A stretch of 64,000 bases of DNA from a virus, in IMG/VR virus record IMGVR_UViG_3300015195_000004, positions 24,710-88,709 of that record, one strand, 5' to 3'. How positions within the stretch are numbered: the stretch's first letter is position 1; every line of letters starts with the position of its first letter. Below the pieces are notes generated by a model. The model ran no database searches, had not been told where the DNA came from, and was given only the letters and a program-made list of their open reading frames with translations. The position numbers and the translations under genes are program-made. This document shows, one piece after another, positions 22,633 through 50,974 of this stretch.

Positions 22633-22986
22633 TTATTCTTGTGTCCAGAACATTTTCTGAATGCCTGCTTGCTTAAGGCGCATTTCGCAACGGGCACACG
22701 GTTTGTGGGTAGCATATAAAATACTACCATCAACACTAATGCCGAATTTTGCGGCAGTCAACAGGGCATTTTCTGAATCATGAATAGTTCTTTGGCAGTG
22801 ATTAGACTCCACAAGACATCCTACTTCATCACACTCAGGAGCACCTGACTGACTTCCGTTATAACCAGTAGCGAGAATCCTATTATCCCGTACTAAAACA
22901 CATCCTACTCGTTTTCTAGGACATGTAGCTCTAGTAGAAATTACTTGAGCCAAGTTAAGGAAATAAGTTTCCCATGAAGGTTTCAT
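22633..22986 (-). CDS. dCMP deaminase family protein with shifted catalytic Glu
   Basis: 117 aa. It has the dCMP-deaminase layout: RKRVGCVLVRDN, GYNGSQSGAP, a Cys-rich insert, and zinc ligands PCARC (C97, C100). The proton-shuttle motif reads H69-D-S-E72-N-A instead of H-A-E-x-N-A, so Glu is one residue later than usual. The enzyme would make dUMP for thymidylate synthesis, in keeping with ThyX at 56 kb. It overlaps the radical SAM gene by ATGA. Confidence 0.75.
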   Translation of the reverse strand: MKPSWETYFLNLAQVISTRATCPRKRVGCVLVRDNRILATGYNGSQSGAPECDEVGCLVESNHCQRTIHDSENALLTAAKFGISVDGSILYATHKPCARCEMRLKQAGIQKMFWTQE

Positions 22987-23858
22987 TTTCCTACGAACAT
23001 CCCGCAGGACGCCTTAACATCGAATCCGACCTTACCTATTATTTTAACATCTGACCCAGGCAGAGAATCTTTAAGGAACTGAGCATTTCGTTCAATAATA
23101 CACACTTCAGGTTCTTTACCTTGCAGAGTTGAATAAGGATTATATCTCACCACATTAAAATCAACTCGTAGATTAAAGGCCTTTATTGCTTCTACAATAC
23201 TAGTCAAAGTTTCTATAGAATCATTCTCGCCCTCAATAAATGCCCAGTGCAACTTAATAATCTTGTGGGACTCGTCTTGATAGTCCTTCAGTTTCTCTAG
23301 GGCTAGAAGGGGGTCTAATGCCTTAGGCAACCACCTCTTACGGAATGTGGGGTCCATACTATAGAGGGAATAGTAAATGTCTGGTGTGTAGTCCTGGAAA
23401 ATCTCTGAGAGGTTCTTATCCTTCATTTCAAGAGGCATAATAGTTGAATACTTAAACTTAGGAATTACATTATAATCTCTAGCAATGTCTCCAAGGGCTC
23501 TGCATAGCCTACTTCCTCCCTGGTTATCAATTACACGAGGGTTACAGAATACTTCTCCGCGTGACATAAAATTAAAATGCATAGACTTAGCAGGTTCTTT
23601 AGTTACATAATGCTCGCACACTTGCCAAGCCTGTTCCTGGTAATCCTCAATATCAAGGAACTTATACTTCGTTTGTCCTGTTTGAGTAAGGTGACACATT
23701 CTGCAGGCTTTATCACAGCCAGTCATACTAGACAGATAGCAGATAAAGTACTCATCAGTACGTCTTACATACCTGGCCTCAATCTTACCAGGAAAGTCGC
23801 CTTCTGTTACAAAGTTAACTGAGGCGTCTTCTTGACTATGAAATATTGTATTTGACAT
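22983..23858 (-). CDS. RlmN/Cfr-like radical SAM methyltransferase
   Basis: 291 aa. The iron-sulphur motif C48-x3-C52-x2-C55 is in SSMTGCDKACRMCHLTQTG. The C-terminus (VGFDVKASCGMFVGK) carries a Cys at 285 in the position of the methyl-carrying Cys of RlmN and Cfr. FMSRGEVFCNP supplies the SAM-binding G-E. RlmN methylates 23S A2503 and some tRNAs at adenine C2, and Cfr at C8. It is shorter than cellular RlmN (about 380 aa), lacking the N-terminal RNA-binding domain. The target in this phage is unknown. Confidence 0.7.
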   Translation of the reverse strand: MSNTIFHSQEDASVNFVTEGDFPGKIEARYVRRTDEYFICYLSSMTGCDKACRMCHLTQTGQTKYKFLDIEDYQEQAWQVCEHYVTKEPAKSMHFNFMSRGEVFCNPRVIDNQGGSRLCRALGDIARDYNVIPKFKYSTIMPLEMKDKNLSEIFQDYTPDIYYSLYSMDPTFRKRWLPKALDPLLALEKLKDYQDESHKIIKLHWAFIEGENDSIETLTSIVEAIKAFNLRVDFNVVRYNPYSTLQGKEPEVCIIERNAQFLKDSLPGSDVKIIGKVGFDVKASCGMFVGK

Positions 23859-45970: not shown

Positions 45971-46044
45971 TGAGTAAAGGTCAAATATTTCTAGTAGCGT
46001 TTTCTTTAGGTATATTAACTGCCTTATTCTGTGTGTCTTTATGA
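45970..46044 (+). CDS. 24-aa membrane micro-protein
   Basis: MSKGQIFLVAFSLGILTALF, single membrane helix. Coupled on both sides (TAATG start, ATGA end), which supports translation despite the length. Function unknown. Confidence 0.4.
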   Translation: MSKGQIFLVAFSLGILTALFCVSL

Positions 46045-48014
46045 GTGATAAGATATATTATTCAGTAAGTACGCTTCGCCAAATGTCTGTCTGCCCTGCC
46101 CGCGTGTTTTTTAAAGGGCTTGCAAAAAAGGGTTTAATTAAAACAGACCCCTCTTTACCATTTATTTTTGGCATTGCTGCTCATGAAGGAGTAGAGGCCC
46201 TTCTTAAAAATGGTGAATCTTCTAAAGTTGTGGCAAACAAGTATGTTAAAGATAATCTTCTTGACAAATACACAGTTAAGAACCTACAAGAAGTAGACAT
46301 TAGTACAGAAGATATTCAGGGAAAACAGGCCCATTTAGATAAGTGCCTTGACAACTTTGAGAATAAGATAATGCCGCGCCTAGTAGAAGCAAACCCAAGC
46401 ATGGATTGGGCTGATAGGGTAGAAGTTAGGTACGAGGCACCTTATCGTAACGGGGTTATGGTAGGCGTGATTGACCTTGATATGGATCATTCTGTCATGG
46501 ACTGGAAAGGTCTAGCACTAGACACCCCAATTCCAACTGTAACCGGATGGAAGAATATGAAGGAATTGCAAGTCGGAGATGAGATATTCGGAAGTAATGG
46601 GCACCCTTGTTTGGTAACAGCTAAATCTGAAATCCACAGCAAAAAATGCTATAAAATTACTTTTGATGATAAAACATCTATTATTTGTGATTCAGACCAT
46701 AAATGGGTTACCTATAACAACATAACCAAGCTCGGAAATCAGGACCACACAAAATTCCGACGCAATAAAAGAACACTAACTACAGAAGAGATAAAAGACA
46801 CCCTATTAGATTCAAAAGGTAAACATCACCACAGAATACTTAATCCGGGACCACTTGTTTTGTCGGATAAACAATTGTCAATTGACCCGTATGTACTAGG
46901 GTTATGGCTAGGTGATGGTAGTTCTAGAGATAGCAGAATCTGTAGTGCAGACCCAGAAATTTTTGATATTATAAAATCTAAGGGTTATGCTTTGGGTATC
47001 CCAGAAATAAAAACAAACGAAAAAACTGGAGTAGTTACAGAAGTTATATCTATAATAGGGCTACAAGCCGACCTTATGTCGTTTAATCTGTTAGACAATA
47101 AGCATATTCCAAACGAATACTTGAGAGGTTCATATAATCAGAGATTAGAACTACTTCAAGGATTAATGGATTCTGATGGGACATATAACCAAGTAAGGTC
47201 ACAAGCTGTATTTTGTAACAATAATGCAAATTTAGCTTACGGCGTACTAGAACTAGTTTTAAGCTTGGGCAGTAAAGGCAGAGTTTTCCATGTAAATAAA
47301 CATGGTTTTGGGCTTACAATAGAATCGTGTGATACTGCATTTACTCCTGTAGGATTTAATCCATTTAAATTGTCTCGGAAAAAAGAACTAGTTAAGGTTC
47401 AGACTATGAAAACAGGAAACTGTGCTATGTCATTCAGGCGTCTGATTATGAAAATAGAAGAAATAGCTTCTGTAGAAACTCAGTGTATTATGGTGGATTC
47501 AGAAGACAGCACTTATCTTTGTGGGCAACAAATGGTACCTACTCATAATAGCGGCAAGGCTATACCTTATATGTCTAGTCTAATGATTGACCCGCAGCCT
47601 CCCACATACCACTTCCTAAAGACCCAAACCCAAGGCTCTGCTCCCTCTAGGTTCTCTTTTGTTTACTTAATTGGTAAACCTACAAGACAGATACAGGATG
47701 GAGTCTATAAAAGCGGTCCTCGTAAAGGCCAGCCCAAAATGGCATTAGATTATGAGAACGGCCTACAGTTTAAGTTTGATGTTCTACAGGATGAAGCTAA
47801 AGTAGCTAAGATGTTCAATGATTATATTGATCCTTGGGCCGAGATGTATGAAGCAGGCATTATATATAAAAACCCAGGTTATAATGGAATGAACTGTAAG
47901 GGTTGCAGCTATCGCACCGCTTGCCAAAAAGAAGATTATCAACTACCCAAGAGGCCAGACCTGGCAACAAAAGACCCTAACGGAATAGACGTAGACCTAC
48001 TAGGAGGAGAATAG
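46041..48014 (+). CDS. Cas4-like RecB-family exonuclease interrupted by a class 3 intein
   Basis: 657 aa, of which residues 157-503 are an intein. The extein parts are a PD-(D/E)XK nuclease: SVCPARVFFKG (Cys18), HEGVEALL, VGVIDLDMDHSVMDWK (catalytic D...D-x-K) and, after the intein, a CKGCSYRTAC C-terminal cluster. Together with Cys18 these form the four-cysteine Fe-S site of Cas4/AddB. The nuclease probably processes DNA ends for the RecA-like recombinase or replication. The intein sits directly on the D-x-K active site, so splicing must occur to give active enzyme. Confidence 0.85.
   Translation: MSDKIYYSVSTLRQMSVCPARVFFKGLAKKGLIKTDPSLPFIFGIAAHEGVEALLKNGESSKVVANKYVKDNLLDKYTVKNLQEVDISTEDIQGKQAHLDKCLDNFENKIMPRLVEANPSMDWADRVEVRYEAPYRNGVMVGVIDLDMDHSVMDWKGLALDTPIPTVTGWKNMKELQVGDEIFGSNGHPCLVTAKSEIHSKKCYKITFDDKTSIICDSDHKWVTYNNITKLGNQDHTKFRRNKRTLTTEEIKDTLLDSKGKHHHRILNPGPLVLSDKQLSIDPYVLGLWLGDGSSRDSRICSADPEIFDIIKSKGYALGIPEIKTNEKTGVVTEVISIIGLQADLMSFNLLDNKHIPNEYLRGSYNQRLELLQGLMDSDGTYNQVRSQAVFCNNNANLAYGVLELVLSLGSKGRVFHVNKHGFGLTIESCDTAFTPVGFNPFKLSRKKELVKVQTMKTGNCAMSFRRLIMKIEEIASVETQCIMVDSEDSTYLCGQQMVPTHNSGKAIPYMSSLMIDPQPPTYHFLKTQTQGSAPSRFSFVYLIGKPTRQIQDGVYKSGPRKGQPKMALDYENGLQFKFDVLQDEAKVAKMFNDYIDPWAEMYEAGIIYKNPGYNGMNCKGCSYRTACQKEDYQLPKRPDLATKDPNGIDVDLLGGE
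46509..47549 (+). mobile_element. Class 3 intein with LAGLIDADG homing endonuclease
   Basis: 347 aa within the 46041 gene. It opens GLALDTPIPTVTGW with Gly at position 1, not Cys or Ser. It ends VPTHN before a Ser extein residue. The class 3 triad is present: Trp222 two residues after the block B His (SDHKWV), Cys482 in block F (QCIMVD), Thr501 in block G. Block C and E motifs LGLWLGDGSS and LLQGLMDSDGTY are the two LAGLIDADG repeats of a homing endonuclease. Confidence 0.85.
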
Positions 48015-48017
48015 TAT

Positions 48018-48230
48018 ATGAATAGTGCAGCATTTAGTGATTATTCGAGAGCTAAGGCAATGAGGGAAGTTAAGGCCCTTAAACTGCTCCAGTTATTTGA
48101 ATCTAATAAACTTATTCACATAATTGAGGACAACCTGGAAACAGAAAATACTTGGGATGGCCACATTCCTGTAATTAACAAAATTTGTTTTACAAAAGAC
48201 ATTGAAGATTATCTTAAGGATACAGACTAG
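48018..48230 (+). CDS. Hypothetical helical protein
   Basis: 70 aa, begins MNSAAFSDYSRAKAMRE, acidic C-terminus (DIEDYLKDTD). Begins 4 bases after the Cas4-like gene. Function unknown. Confidence 0.5.
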   Translation: MNSAAFSDYSRAKAMREVKALKLLQLFESNKLIHIIEDNLETENTWDGHIPVINKICFTKDIEDYLKDTD

Positions 48231-48231
48231 A

Positions 48232-48585
48232 ATGCTATCCAGGGGGGAAGAGTTGTTATTAACTATCCTTGGATTACAGTTCCCACATTATACTATAATC
48301 CCACAGAAAACGATTAAAGTAGGATACAAATCCCTCTACCTAGACTATTACATCCCACAGTTAAAGATGGCATTTGAATTCGACGGGCAACAGCATTTTC
48401 AGTTTATTTCCTTCTTTCACAAAACGCTGAAAGGCTTCCAAAATAGTCTTAAAAGAGATTCTATGAAGGATAAGTACTGCCGAGAAAATGGCATTACACT
48501 TGTGCATATACCGGACAATGGTAAACTAACCCTAGAAAAAGTAAGGAATATTATATCAAAAATACCAATATACGAAAGTGAGTAA
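48232..48585 (+). CDS. Vsr/DUF559-like PD-(D/E)XK endonuclease
   Basis: 117 aa from the ATG after the previous stop. LYLDYYIPQLKMAFEFDGQQHF is the D...E-x-D-G-x-Q-H core, followed by a charged helix (KDKYCRENGITLVHIP). The fold is that of Vsr-type and DUF559 nucleases, often homing or mismatch-linked in phages. It follows the replication nuclease and may be mobile. Confidence 0.7.
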   Translation: MLSRGEELLLTILGLQFPHYTIIPQKTIKVGYKSLYLDYYIPQLKMAFEFDGQQHFQFISFFHKTLKGFQNSLKRDSMKDKYCRENGITLVHIPDNGKLTLEKVRNIISKIPIYESE

Positions 48586-48591
48586 AACACA

Positions 48592-49278
48592 ATGAATAAA
48601 CTACTCTCGCTAATGTCTTTAATTAGCATAATTACCCTCGGATTTATGAACCCAGCATCGGCTGCTTATCAATATGAGTCCTGGTCCGGTTTTACCGCAG
48701 GAACAATTTTTTTAGACGGACATATCTACGGTAATTGGAAAGATCAATTTAATGGAGGCGGCACTACGGAGGTATTTAATCCGGGTACACTTATCACCAC
48801 TAAGTGTCTATCGGAGTGGCCTGCATATGTTTACGGTTCTACCCGGTCAACTATGGTAACATCTACTACAGCCTTTAGTTCTAATAATTTCTATGCATAT
48901 TCTACGTTTGTAACTTTGTCCCAGAACAGACCTAGCCCAAATAGCTGGGAAATGGGATGGTTTGTGTGGGACTATACAGATAATGCCCATTTTTATAATG
49001 TAATTCTAAGAACTGATGGATGGGAACTGGACAAAGAGGACCCGGCGTATCCAGGTAATCAGCGATTTCTTACCTCAGGTTTTAGTCCGACGTTTGCATT
49101 AGATAGTGTAAATACAATAAGTGTTACACAAAGCTCTAATGTTATTACAGTGAACGTGAATGGTAATTACTTAACTAGCTATACCGATATGCAAAGACCA
49201 TACTATGGTGGAAAAATCGGACTATATGATGAAGATTCTCATGTAGCCTGGGGAGTAACTGCTGCAAGCTCTAACTAG
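48592..49278 (+). CDS. Secreted jelly-roll (DUF1080/laminin-G-like) protein
   Basis: 228 aa. Signal peptide residues 1-24 (MNKLLSLMSLISIITLGFM, cleavage after SAA). The rest is a beta-sandwich with the sequence WEMGWFVWDYTDNAHFY, GWELDKEDPAYPG and YYGGKIGLYDED. The same module occurs at the C-terminus of the next protein at near 45-50% identity by eye. Such concanavalin-like folds bind or cleave carbohydrates. Probably exported to act on cell-surface or matrix polysaccharide. Confidence 0.7.
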   Translation: MNKLLSLMSLISIITLGFMNPASAAYQYESWSGFTAGTIFLDGHIYGNWKDQFNGGGTTEVFNPGTLITTKCLSEWPAYVYGSTRSTMVTSTTAFSSNNFYAYSTFVTLSQNRPSPNSWEMGWFVWDYTDNAHFYNVILRTDGWELDKEDPAYPGNQRFLTSGFSPTFALDSVNTISVTQSSNVITVNVNGNYLTSYTDMQRPYYGGKIGLYDEDSHVAWGVTAASSN

Positions 49279-49338
49279 AAGCAAGCAAGGCCTAATTTGA
49301 CTGGTGACAAACCAAGAGAGAAAGGGTAGACTAGAAAA

Positions 49339-50934
49339 ATGAAAAATACACTAAAACTAGCTACCCTTATATTAGGGGTAGTACTTATATCCTGTGGTGG
49401 AAAATCCATCACCCCTACCCCTCCTAATAGTATTAATAAAACCGCCTCATTTATCCCTCCGTCTTGGATATGGGGTGTAACTACAGATAATGTAGTGAAT
49501 AACACATTGTCACAAACCACAGCACTTTCATCATTCTCAAAAAGAACAATGATTAGAACTGTGTTTGACCAGCCCAAAAATGGATCACCTGTAGCATCAG
49601 ATTATTTAGCTTCAGTTACATCAGTTTCTGCAGTTTCAGACATTTTAGGCCTATTGATTGATTCTAGTGACATGCCTAATTCAAGTCTTTCTTATGTACA
49701 ATCTAGAGTTTCGTCCTATTTATCTGCACTAGGAAGTAAAGTTGCAGTATGGGAAGTCGGCAATGAAATTAATGGTAATTGGCTTGGGTCAGGAGTTATT
49801 CCAAAAGTAGAAGCTATGTATGATGCAGTAAAAGCTGCTGGAAAGCCTGCAGCAATTACCTTTTACTATGAAAACCCGATAACCCCAGGATATGATATGT
49901 TACCCTGGATTGATGCTAATATTCCTGCAGGTAATCGTATGCGAACAGGACTTGATTACGCATTTGTAAGTTATTATGAAGACCAAAACGGTGGCCATCA
50001 GCTTACGCAAACCGAACTAAATACAATATTCTCTGGGTTACACGCTAGATTCCCTAATGCTAAACTTGGATTTGGTGAATGTGGTTATGGTGGGACAATT
50101 CCACCAGCAGGAAGTGGAGATGTCACCAGGGCAGCACTACTTAATAGATTCTATGGATATAGAGTCCCTACAGTCCCGGCATTTATAGGAGGTAATTTTT
50201 ACTGGAACTGGAATTACACCTCTGTACCAAAAAGCAAGCCTGATTGGACAGTCCTTAATACTCAGTTCCAAAATAACCCAGCCCCCTCACCTACTCCTAC
50301 TGTAGCACCAACTGCGACACCCACAGTAGTTCCTACATCTACACCATCAGCATCTCCTACTGGAACCCCTTGGATTGATGGGCAAACATATGGTCCTTGG
50401 TATGACCAATATGGGGGATATGGAGTAATCCAAACAGTAGGAGCAAATATATCACTAACTCCGCGTTATACTGCTGGTAGTACAGAAGCAAGTCTAATAA
50501 CTACTTCAGCAGCCTTCGGGGACTTTACTGCACAAACCACAATGACAACTGTATCACAGAACAGACAGCCTAATCCTAATGCGTGGGAAGCTGCTTGGTT
50601 CCTGTGGCACTACACAGACGATAACCACTTCTATTCACTAGTTCTTCATACTGATGGTTCAGGATGGGAATTAGGAAAAGAAGACCCAGCATATCCAGGA
50701 TCACAACGATTCCTAGCAACACCAACAACTCCCAGTTTCCCAATGGGAAGCCCTTATACAGTCAAAGTAATTCAGTCAGGTGCGACAATGTCTATATATG
50801 TCAACGGGGCATTCTTAATCACTTATGTAGATACAGAACGCCCATACTACTCTGGAAAAATTGGTCTTTACACAGAAGATGCCCACGTAGTATTCACACC
50901 ACTTACCATAAATAATCTAACCCTATCTTGGTAA
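49339..50934 (+). CDS. Lipid-anchored glycoside hydrolase with jelly-roll domain
   Basis: 531 aa. Lipobox LISC at Cys19. Residues 45-310 form a TIM-barrel-like domain with VWEVGNEINGNW (probable acid/base Glu143) and FGECGYGG (probable nucleophile Glu247), the clan GH-A arrangement. A Pro/Thr-rich linker (PTPTVAPTATPTV) follows. The C-terminal domain (WEAAWFLWHYTDDNHFY, GWELGKEDPAYPG) duplicates the preceding gene. It is presented on the cell surface and should degrade an exopolysaccharide. Specificity unknown. Confidence 0.7.
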   Translation: MKNTLKLATLILGVVLISCGGKSITPTPPNSINKTASFIPPSWIWGVTTDNVVNNTLSQTTALSSFSKRTMIRTVFDQPKNGSPVASDYLASVTSVSAVSDILGLLIDSSDMPNSSLSYVQSRVSSYLSALGSKVAVWEVGNEINGNWLGSGVIPKVEAMYDAVKAAGKPAAITFYYENPITPGYDMLPWIDANIPAGNRMRTGLDYAFVSYYEDQNGGHQLTQTELNTIFSGLHARFPNAKLGFGECGYGGTIPPAGSGDVTRAALLNRFYGYRVPTVPAFIGGNFYWNWNYTSVPKSKPDWTVLNTQFQNNPAPSPTPTVAPTATPTVVPTSTPSASPTGTPWIDGQTYGPWYDQYGGYGVIQTVGANISLTPRYTAGSTEASLITTSAAFGDFTAQTTMTTVSQNRQPNPNAWEAAWFLWHYTDDNHFYSLVLHTDGSGWELGKEDPAYPGSQRFLATPTTPSFPMGSPYTVKVIQSGATMSIYVNGAFLITYVDTERPYYSGKIGLYTEDAHVVFTPLTINNLTLSW

Positions 50935-50946
50935 AATAAGTCCGAT

Positions 50947-50974
50947 GGGCTGTATCTAAACAATACGGCCCTTT
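50947..50974 (+). terminator. Terminator after the glycosidase gene
   Basis: GGGCTGTAT and ATACGGCCC form a 9-bp stem (one G-U) with a 7-nt loop, then a short CTTT. It would end the secreted-protein transcript. Confidence 0.55.

Follow-up and report, generated by a model that had tools for sequence, protein, structure and literature searches.

Gene organization of the P1/P2 region

The window, by which we mean the whole 64,000 bp stretch of DNA that was analyzed, corresponds to bases 24710-88709 of an 88.7 kb IMG/VR record (IMGVR_UViG_3300015195_000004). Two neighbouring ORFs in this window, named P1 and P2 here, encode proteins with export signals and a shared jelly-roll domain (Table 1). 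They are located between a gene for an intein-bearing PD-(D/E)XK nuclease and a RecA/UvsX-like gene; further out, this stretch is flanked by genes for primase-helicase and DNA polymerase, and a preliminary description made from the sequence alone had correctly placed P1 and P2 among replication genes. The terminase gene is on the minus strand in a separate block, and a GH25 endolysin is encoded elsewhere in the phage, away from P1 and P2. The G+C contents of the pair (41%) and of the whole window (40%) match, and the capture was therefore probably not recent. A TerL search for isolate relatives of the phage returned only weak matches to Bacillus and Microcystis phages, and the phage's TerL was found in none of ten other contigs (0/10).

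Table 1. Features of the P1/P2 region, numbered from the first base of the window
Feature	Position	Strand	Basis
P1, stand-alone exported jelly-roll protein, 228 aa	48592-49278	+	ORF
P1 CBM66-like domain, approximately residues 36-228	48697-49275	+	PF06439 match
P2, glycosidase-like lipoprotein, 531 aa (GH-A-like barrel, linker, jelly-roll)	49339-50934	+	ORF
P2 lipobox codons Leu-Ile-Ser-Cys19 (residues 16-19), +2 residue Gly	49384-49395	+	Sequence
P2 predicted catalytic (beta/alpha)8 barrel, approximately residues 40-316	49456-50286	+	AlphaFold model; Foldseek matches to GH-A
Glu143 codon, predicted acid/base, motif WEVGNE, end of beta-strand 4	49765-49767	+	Conservation; model
Glu247 codon, predicted nucleophile, motif GFGECG, beta-strand 7	50077-50079	+	Conservation; model
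P2 Pro/Thr/Ser-rich linker, approximately residues 313-341	50275-50361	+	Sequence; Pfam PT repeat, E-value 0.042
P2 C-terminal jelly-roll, residues 342-531	50362-50931	+	Model; CBM66 fold; PF06439
Terminator-like hairpin between P2 and protease gene	50947-50971	+	Hairpin without U-tract
Exported trypsin-like serine protease, 215 aa	50996-51643	+	PF13365 (1.1e-7) and PF00089 (2.6e-6), both above cut-off

The signal peptide of P1 covers approximately residues 1-24, with cleavage probably after ASA24. Its jelly-roll is 47% identical to that of P2 over 187 aa (E-value: 4e-57), a similarity far beyond chance. A lipid-anchored hydrolase joined through a Pro/Thr linker to a jelly-roll that recurs as a separate secreted protein, as originally described, is thus recovered in full (P2 lipobox, linker and C-terminal domain; P1 signal peptide). 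The terminator that had been assigned to these genes is less certain: the hairpin downstream of P2 is strong (-18.5 kcal/mol, z-score -4.4), but it is followed only by UUU, and a terminator scan identified no plus-strand terminator at this position. The protease gene beyond the hairpin has intact His, Asp and Ser (GTSGAP) catalytic motifs and may belong to the exported cassette as a third member.

Three other features of the window were recorded. The nuclease gene (46041-48014) is split by a LAGLIDADG/Hint intein inside its DWK motif, and the first intein residue is Gly (DWK-GLALDTP...VPTHN-S), where Cys or Ser is usual. Directly 5' of P1 is a homing/HNH-type endonuclease-like ORF (48202-48585; PHROG 559, E-value: 4.5e-20), which may have helped to import the cassette. 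On the minus strand, positions 22983-23858 show a strong match to PHROG 27142 (Fe-S-cluster redox domain, E-value: 2e-104).

The P2 barrel

Homologues of the P2 barrel were collected from viral contigs and bacterial genomes (140 bacterial stretches, of which 80 were kept). An alignment of 69 barrel sequences has 15 invariant positions, including N142, E143, N145, G146 and E247 (P2 numbering), and the AlphaFold model built from these homologues is a TIM barrel (pLDDT 96.7, pTM 0.93). In enzymes of clan GH-A, the catalytic Glu pair is found at the ends of strands 4 and 7. In the model, E143 directly follows strand 98-103 (strand 4) and is preceded by N142, while E247 lies inside strand 203-209 (strand 7). 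Foldseek comparison of the model retrieved GH1, GH2 and GH128 enzymes with TM-scores of approximately 0.55-0.6. The preliminary description had called P2 a GH-A-like hydrolase, had singled out Glu143 and Glu247, and had named the lack of a TIM barrel as evidence to the contrary; the predicted fold and the invariance and placement of both residues bear this proposal out. P2 is therefore very likely to be an exported GH-A-type glycosidase.

Its family is harder to name. The phage barrel matched no family in Pfam or NCBIfam. A profile search of the PDB gave a GH53 galactanase (E-value: 0.02), and weak matches to PF07745 (GH53) were obtained for 13 of the 69 barrel members (best E-value: 4.7e-6), the phage sequence not being among them; with no Pfam match for the phage domain, membership in GH53 (endo-galactanases) was rejected. 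Membership in GH128 is likewise unsupported (TM-scores 0.57/0.64, 11% identity, no Pfam match). E. coli YbcH was also considered as a member of the barrel family and set aside, as it is a DUF4434 protein with an hmmsearch E-value of 0.15. From sequence and model, we conclude that the P2 barrel has the predicted fold of a GH-A-type glycosidase from a family without assignment. Bdellovibrio-type proteins in which a GHL6-like hydrolase is fused to the barrel were seen at two loci (L088:4246-6765 and L044:4663-6774); the GHL6-like call is based on a Pfam match for L088 only, just below the cut-off.

The jelly-roll domain

When isolated from P2, the jelly-roll scores 27.1 bits against PF06439 (cut-off 26.8), and all four jelly-roll domains tested match this family with E<0.01, while full-length P1 and P2 score below the cut-off. 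The model of the P2 domain (pLDDT 85.5, pTM 0.84), for which one row from the plasmid collection was omitted from the alignment, has CBM66 structures as its five best PDB matches (TM-scores 0.71-0.73/0.81-0.84). The nearest is CBM66 of Bacillus subtilis (PDB 4azz, 4b1m; TM-scores 0.73/0.84, 19% identity), which a sequence search with the jelly-roll did not retrieve. As PF06439 is of the 3-keto-disaccharide hydrolase type and characterized single-domain DUF1080 proteins are hydrolases (PMC9007349), the domain might itself be catalytic, and the pair a two-enzyme pathway. We regard this as very improbable: the CBM66 TM-scores are well above that for a 3-keto-2-hydroxy-glucal hydratase (0.58), and no dehydrogenase producing 3-keto sugars was noticed. 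Because the closest fold in the model comparison is CBM66, a role in sugar binding is favored over catalysis.

In the jelly-roll tree, the P1 and P2 domains are sisters with support of 99/99, and one therefore probably arose in the phage lineage as a copy of the other. Scans of viral contigs for the jelly-roll found only two further examples (L095 and L096), and a widened alignment contained no conserved stretch usable for searching. The domain is rare in Burkholderiales, as 300 genomes gave one strong and two marginal matches. The barrel-linker-jelly-roll fusion of P2 also occurs in Janthinobacterium and Noviherbaspirillum (L042, L066). In Polaromonas and another Burkholderiales MAG (L062, L077), the barrel gene is followed, after gaps of 132 and 182 bp, by a separate stand-alone jelly-roll gene, an arrangement that divides the phage's set between two genes. 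On a Streptomyces plasmid, genes for a deacetylase, a GT2 glycosyltransferase and WecB are immediately followed by one for a stand-alone exported jelly-roll that shares 42% identity with the P2 domain; the GT2 protein is only weakly similar to NfrB, while the deacetylase has clear homology to its counterparts in the Nfr loci described below.

Two structural variants were observed. The jelly-roll genes L062:4812-5615 and L077:6959-7693 appear to have their first strands shifted to the C-terminus (circular permutation), and an actinophage protein (L095:6135-10316, 1393 aa) combines the jelly-roll with long "AGATDT"-type repeats.

Bacterial relatives and Nfr-type loci

According to published accounts, the E. 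coli Nfr system (NfrB-NfrA-YbcH, with WecB) produces NGR, the phage N4 receptor; the glycosyltransferase NfrB is activated by c-di-GMP and takes as substrate the UDP-ManNAc supplied by WecB, and its product, the structure of which is unsolved, is exported by NfrA and acts as a receptor glycan for N4 and other phages (PMC8669469, PMC8669472). A broad Pfam count of the neighbours of bacterial barrel genes gave a diffuse list, and it was on direct search for individual components that genes for an NfrB-like synthase, NfrA, a DUF2334/deacetylase-like protein and WecB were found around them. At least two of NfrB, NfrA, DUF2334 and WecB are encoded within approximately 6 kb in 18 of the 80 bacterial loci; fewer than two were detected within the flanks fetched for the other 62. 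Among control stretches from comparable genomes, 205 kb in total, none contained two Nfr components and one had WecB alone. The 18 loci represent approximately eight lineages (Holophagaceae, Acidobacteria, a gammaproteobacterial MAG, Oligoflexia, Bdellovibrio, Rokubacteria, Collimonas and Ralstonia), with Ralstonia and close kin over-represented (10/18). The NfrB-like protein of Acidobacteria carries an MshEN c-di-GMP domain. In two Nfr-type loci, YbcH-like (DUF4434) genes adjoin the barrel gene (L012:420-1529 and L090:2999-4261), so the two kinds of accessory protein can coexist.

The relatives closest to the phage enzyme follow this pattern. In the barrel tree, P2 groups with L011, L012, L013, a Ramlibacter group and two phage sequences (L003 and L091; SH-aLRT 99), and L011, L012 and L013, its three closest bacterial relatives, are all in Nfr loci. 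Among genomes with no Nfr gene near the barrel, 14 of 18 have an NfrB homologue elsewhere; in Janthinobacterium, it is 10.5 kb from the gene for the fusion protein. NfrB is encoded elsewhere in 10 of 12 Burkholderiales genomes that have a barrel without an Nfr gene within 6 kb on either side, compared to 9 of 199 genomes sampled from the order (Fisher's exact test, p = 1.4e-10, uncorrected for kinship and for genome choice). As the barrel itself is present in only 1 of 200 Burkholderiales genomes, it is an optional accessory. Because both Ignavibacteria genomes tested lack NfrB (0/2), enzymes of the family may act on several substrates.

The Nfr context of these relatives strengthens the earlier suggestion that P2 and P1 remodel surface polysaccharide. 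Another suggestion, host nutrition, has become less favored. If P2 were a nutritional auxiliary metabolic gene (AMG) product, it would break down polysaccharide from the environment and thereby nourish the infected host, a role that has been proposed for soil viral glycosidases. P2 is an exported glycosidase-like protein with a binding module, and a soil viral chitosanase is known to be a functional AMG (PMC9485262). We consider this improbable, as the bacterial relatives recur at loci for exopolysaccharide synthesis rather than in catabolic clusters and no transporter or catabolic gene was found adjoining P1 and P2.

Relatives in other phages

Barrel relatives are present on several further virus contigs. 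L093 was left out of this evidence because it is probably a bacterial Comamonas sequence that was called viral. Export signals were identified in the phage homologues L008, L009 and L094; L003 is ambiguous and L005 has none. The absence of a signal peptide in L005 would suit an enzyme carried on the particle, where P2, P1 or both might aid penetration of the host coat at entry, as would the match of P1 to a PHROG tail family (E-value: 4e-4), the jelly-roll in the large actinophage protein and a weak jelly-roll match in a Menderavirus protein adjoining a tail assembly gene. In the present phage, such a role is quite improbable: both products carry export signals (a signal peptide in P1, a lipobox in P2), their genes are outside the tail module, and neither product has a tail-assembly domain. 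The preliminary description had likewise preferred a role other than that of a virion enzyme, which agrees with the export signals and with the separation of the pair from the tail genes.

The setting of the barrel gene in other phages bears on when the enzyme acts. The preliminary description had proposed an early role. For P2, this is inferred from gene position only, while in L003 and L091 the barrel gene adjoins an SLT transglycosylase gene and in L005 it is within the tail/endolysin region. These lysis-gene neighbours suggest late action in those phages. In addition, secreted proteases accompany the glycosidase in three phages: the trypsin-like enzyme here, a C39-like domain fused to the barrel in L091 and a papain-like protease encoded approximately 6 kb from the barrel gene in L092. 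The L091 protein (L091:6729-8804, on an 84.8 kb virus contig) is a lipoprotein consisting of a C39-like peptidase (weak match), a PKD domain and the barrel; its gene is followed by those for a membrane protein and then the transglycosylase.

Because proteases accompany the glycosidase, a kit for digesting the surrounding matrix is a serious rival to receptor removal. Enzyme, binding module and protease would then be late dispersal or lysis accessories that degrade matrix polysaccharide and protein, allowing virions to escape from biofilms or aggregates; they would have no role in receptor removal, and the substrate need not be an Nfr glycan. The lysis-gene settings in L003, L091 and L005 are in keeping with this. 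However, P1 and P2 are among plus-strand replication genes, at a distance from the tail genes and the GH25 endolysin gene, and a lipid anchor would keep P2 attached to the cell instead of letting it enter the matrix. On balance, we believe such a role to be unlikely for this phage.

Proposed role of P1 and P2

Based on these results, the preliminary interpretation is partly supported as a whole, and the best explanation, which we hold to be somewhat more probable than its negation, is that P2 and P1 are a captured exopolysaccharide glycosidase and binding module that act on host-surface glycan. P2 would be a retaining glycosidase of clan GH-A type from an unnamed family, tethered by its lipid anchor to the envelope of an infected, probably Gram-negative, host and held on the host polysaccharide by its CBM66-like jelly-roll; P1 would be a free, soluble copy of this module. 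The set was probably captured from a bacterial NfrA/NfrB/WecB-type locus, the source locus making an exopolysaccharide that probably contains ManNAc, and the jelly-roll would have been duplicated in the phage lineage after capture. No Nfr genes were found in the phage.

During infection, P2 would cut an Nfr-class surface glycan, and we lean slightly toward an Nfr-type exopolysaccharide as its substrate. Two benefits appear most likely: progeny could be freed from the coat and from debris that bears the glycan, and the loss of a glycan receptor could reduce adsorption by rival phages. That the phage gains through release, exclusion or both at the surface of the infected cell is plausible, at a little under an even chance. 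The complete scheme, in which surface-anchored P2 destroys an NGR-like receptor glycan, frees progeny from debris and shuts out rivals by means of an undescribed, Nfr-specialized family, is more speculative and is put forward tentatively.

NGR is a phage receptor glycan of unsolved composition and turnover. If P2 cuts a glycan of this type, it would be a reagent for identifying the polymer and would provide a testable case of a phage removing receptor glycan from the cell that it has infected. The data also point to a GH-A-like family that is unclassified and has a binding module of its own; it is found across several phyla in Nfr loci and has been captured by phages.

Comparison with known systems

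The phage enzyme resembles the E. coli Nfr system in that its bacterial relatives are found in NfrB/NfrA/WecB loci. No such glycosidase or jelly-roll is described for that system in the retrieved portions of the E. coli papers (PMC8669469, PMC8669472). E. coli has YbcH, a DUF4434 protein that is not recognized by the barrel profile, and the phage lacks the synthesis genes. In the portions of the literature retrieved by our search, no paper joined NfrB, a glycosidase and exopolysaccharide, and no glycosidase of the barrel family was mentioned.

With clan GH-A, P2 shares the TIM barrel (nearest to GH1, GH2 and GH128 in fold and to GH53 in sequence), Asn-Glu at strand 4 and Glu at strand 7, but the TM-scores with the named families are only approximately 0.55-0.6 and the similarity to GH53 is weak. 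The jelly-roll, compared at the level of the fold, resembles B. subtilis CBM66 and differs in that it also exists here as a stand-alone exported protein. The soil viral chitosanase is likewise a glycosidase encoded on the genome of an uncultured virus (PMC9485262). It is a different enzyme, and for P2 the lineage indicates a link with exopolysaccharide loci.

Surface glycans are also attacked by other phage-encoded proteins, namely polysaccharide depolymerases and the N4-type deacetylase tailspike. However, these are parts of the virion tail used for entry, whereas P1 and P2 are predicted to be exported, host-expressed proteins encoded outside the tail module; with a signal peptide, a lipobox and replication genes as neighbours, they do not conform to tailspike depolymerases. 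Superinfection-exclusion lipoproteins of the T5 Llp type bind the receptor protein. P2 carries a lipobox and, like these, would be a lipoprotein made by the phage and displayed on the infected cell, where it could interfere with adsorption, but it would do so by cutting a glycan rather than by binding a receptor protein. If P2 does destroy an NGR-like receptor, it would be a phage counterpart of influenza neuraminidase.
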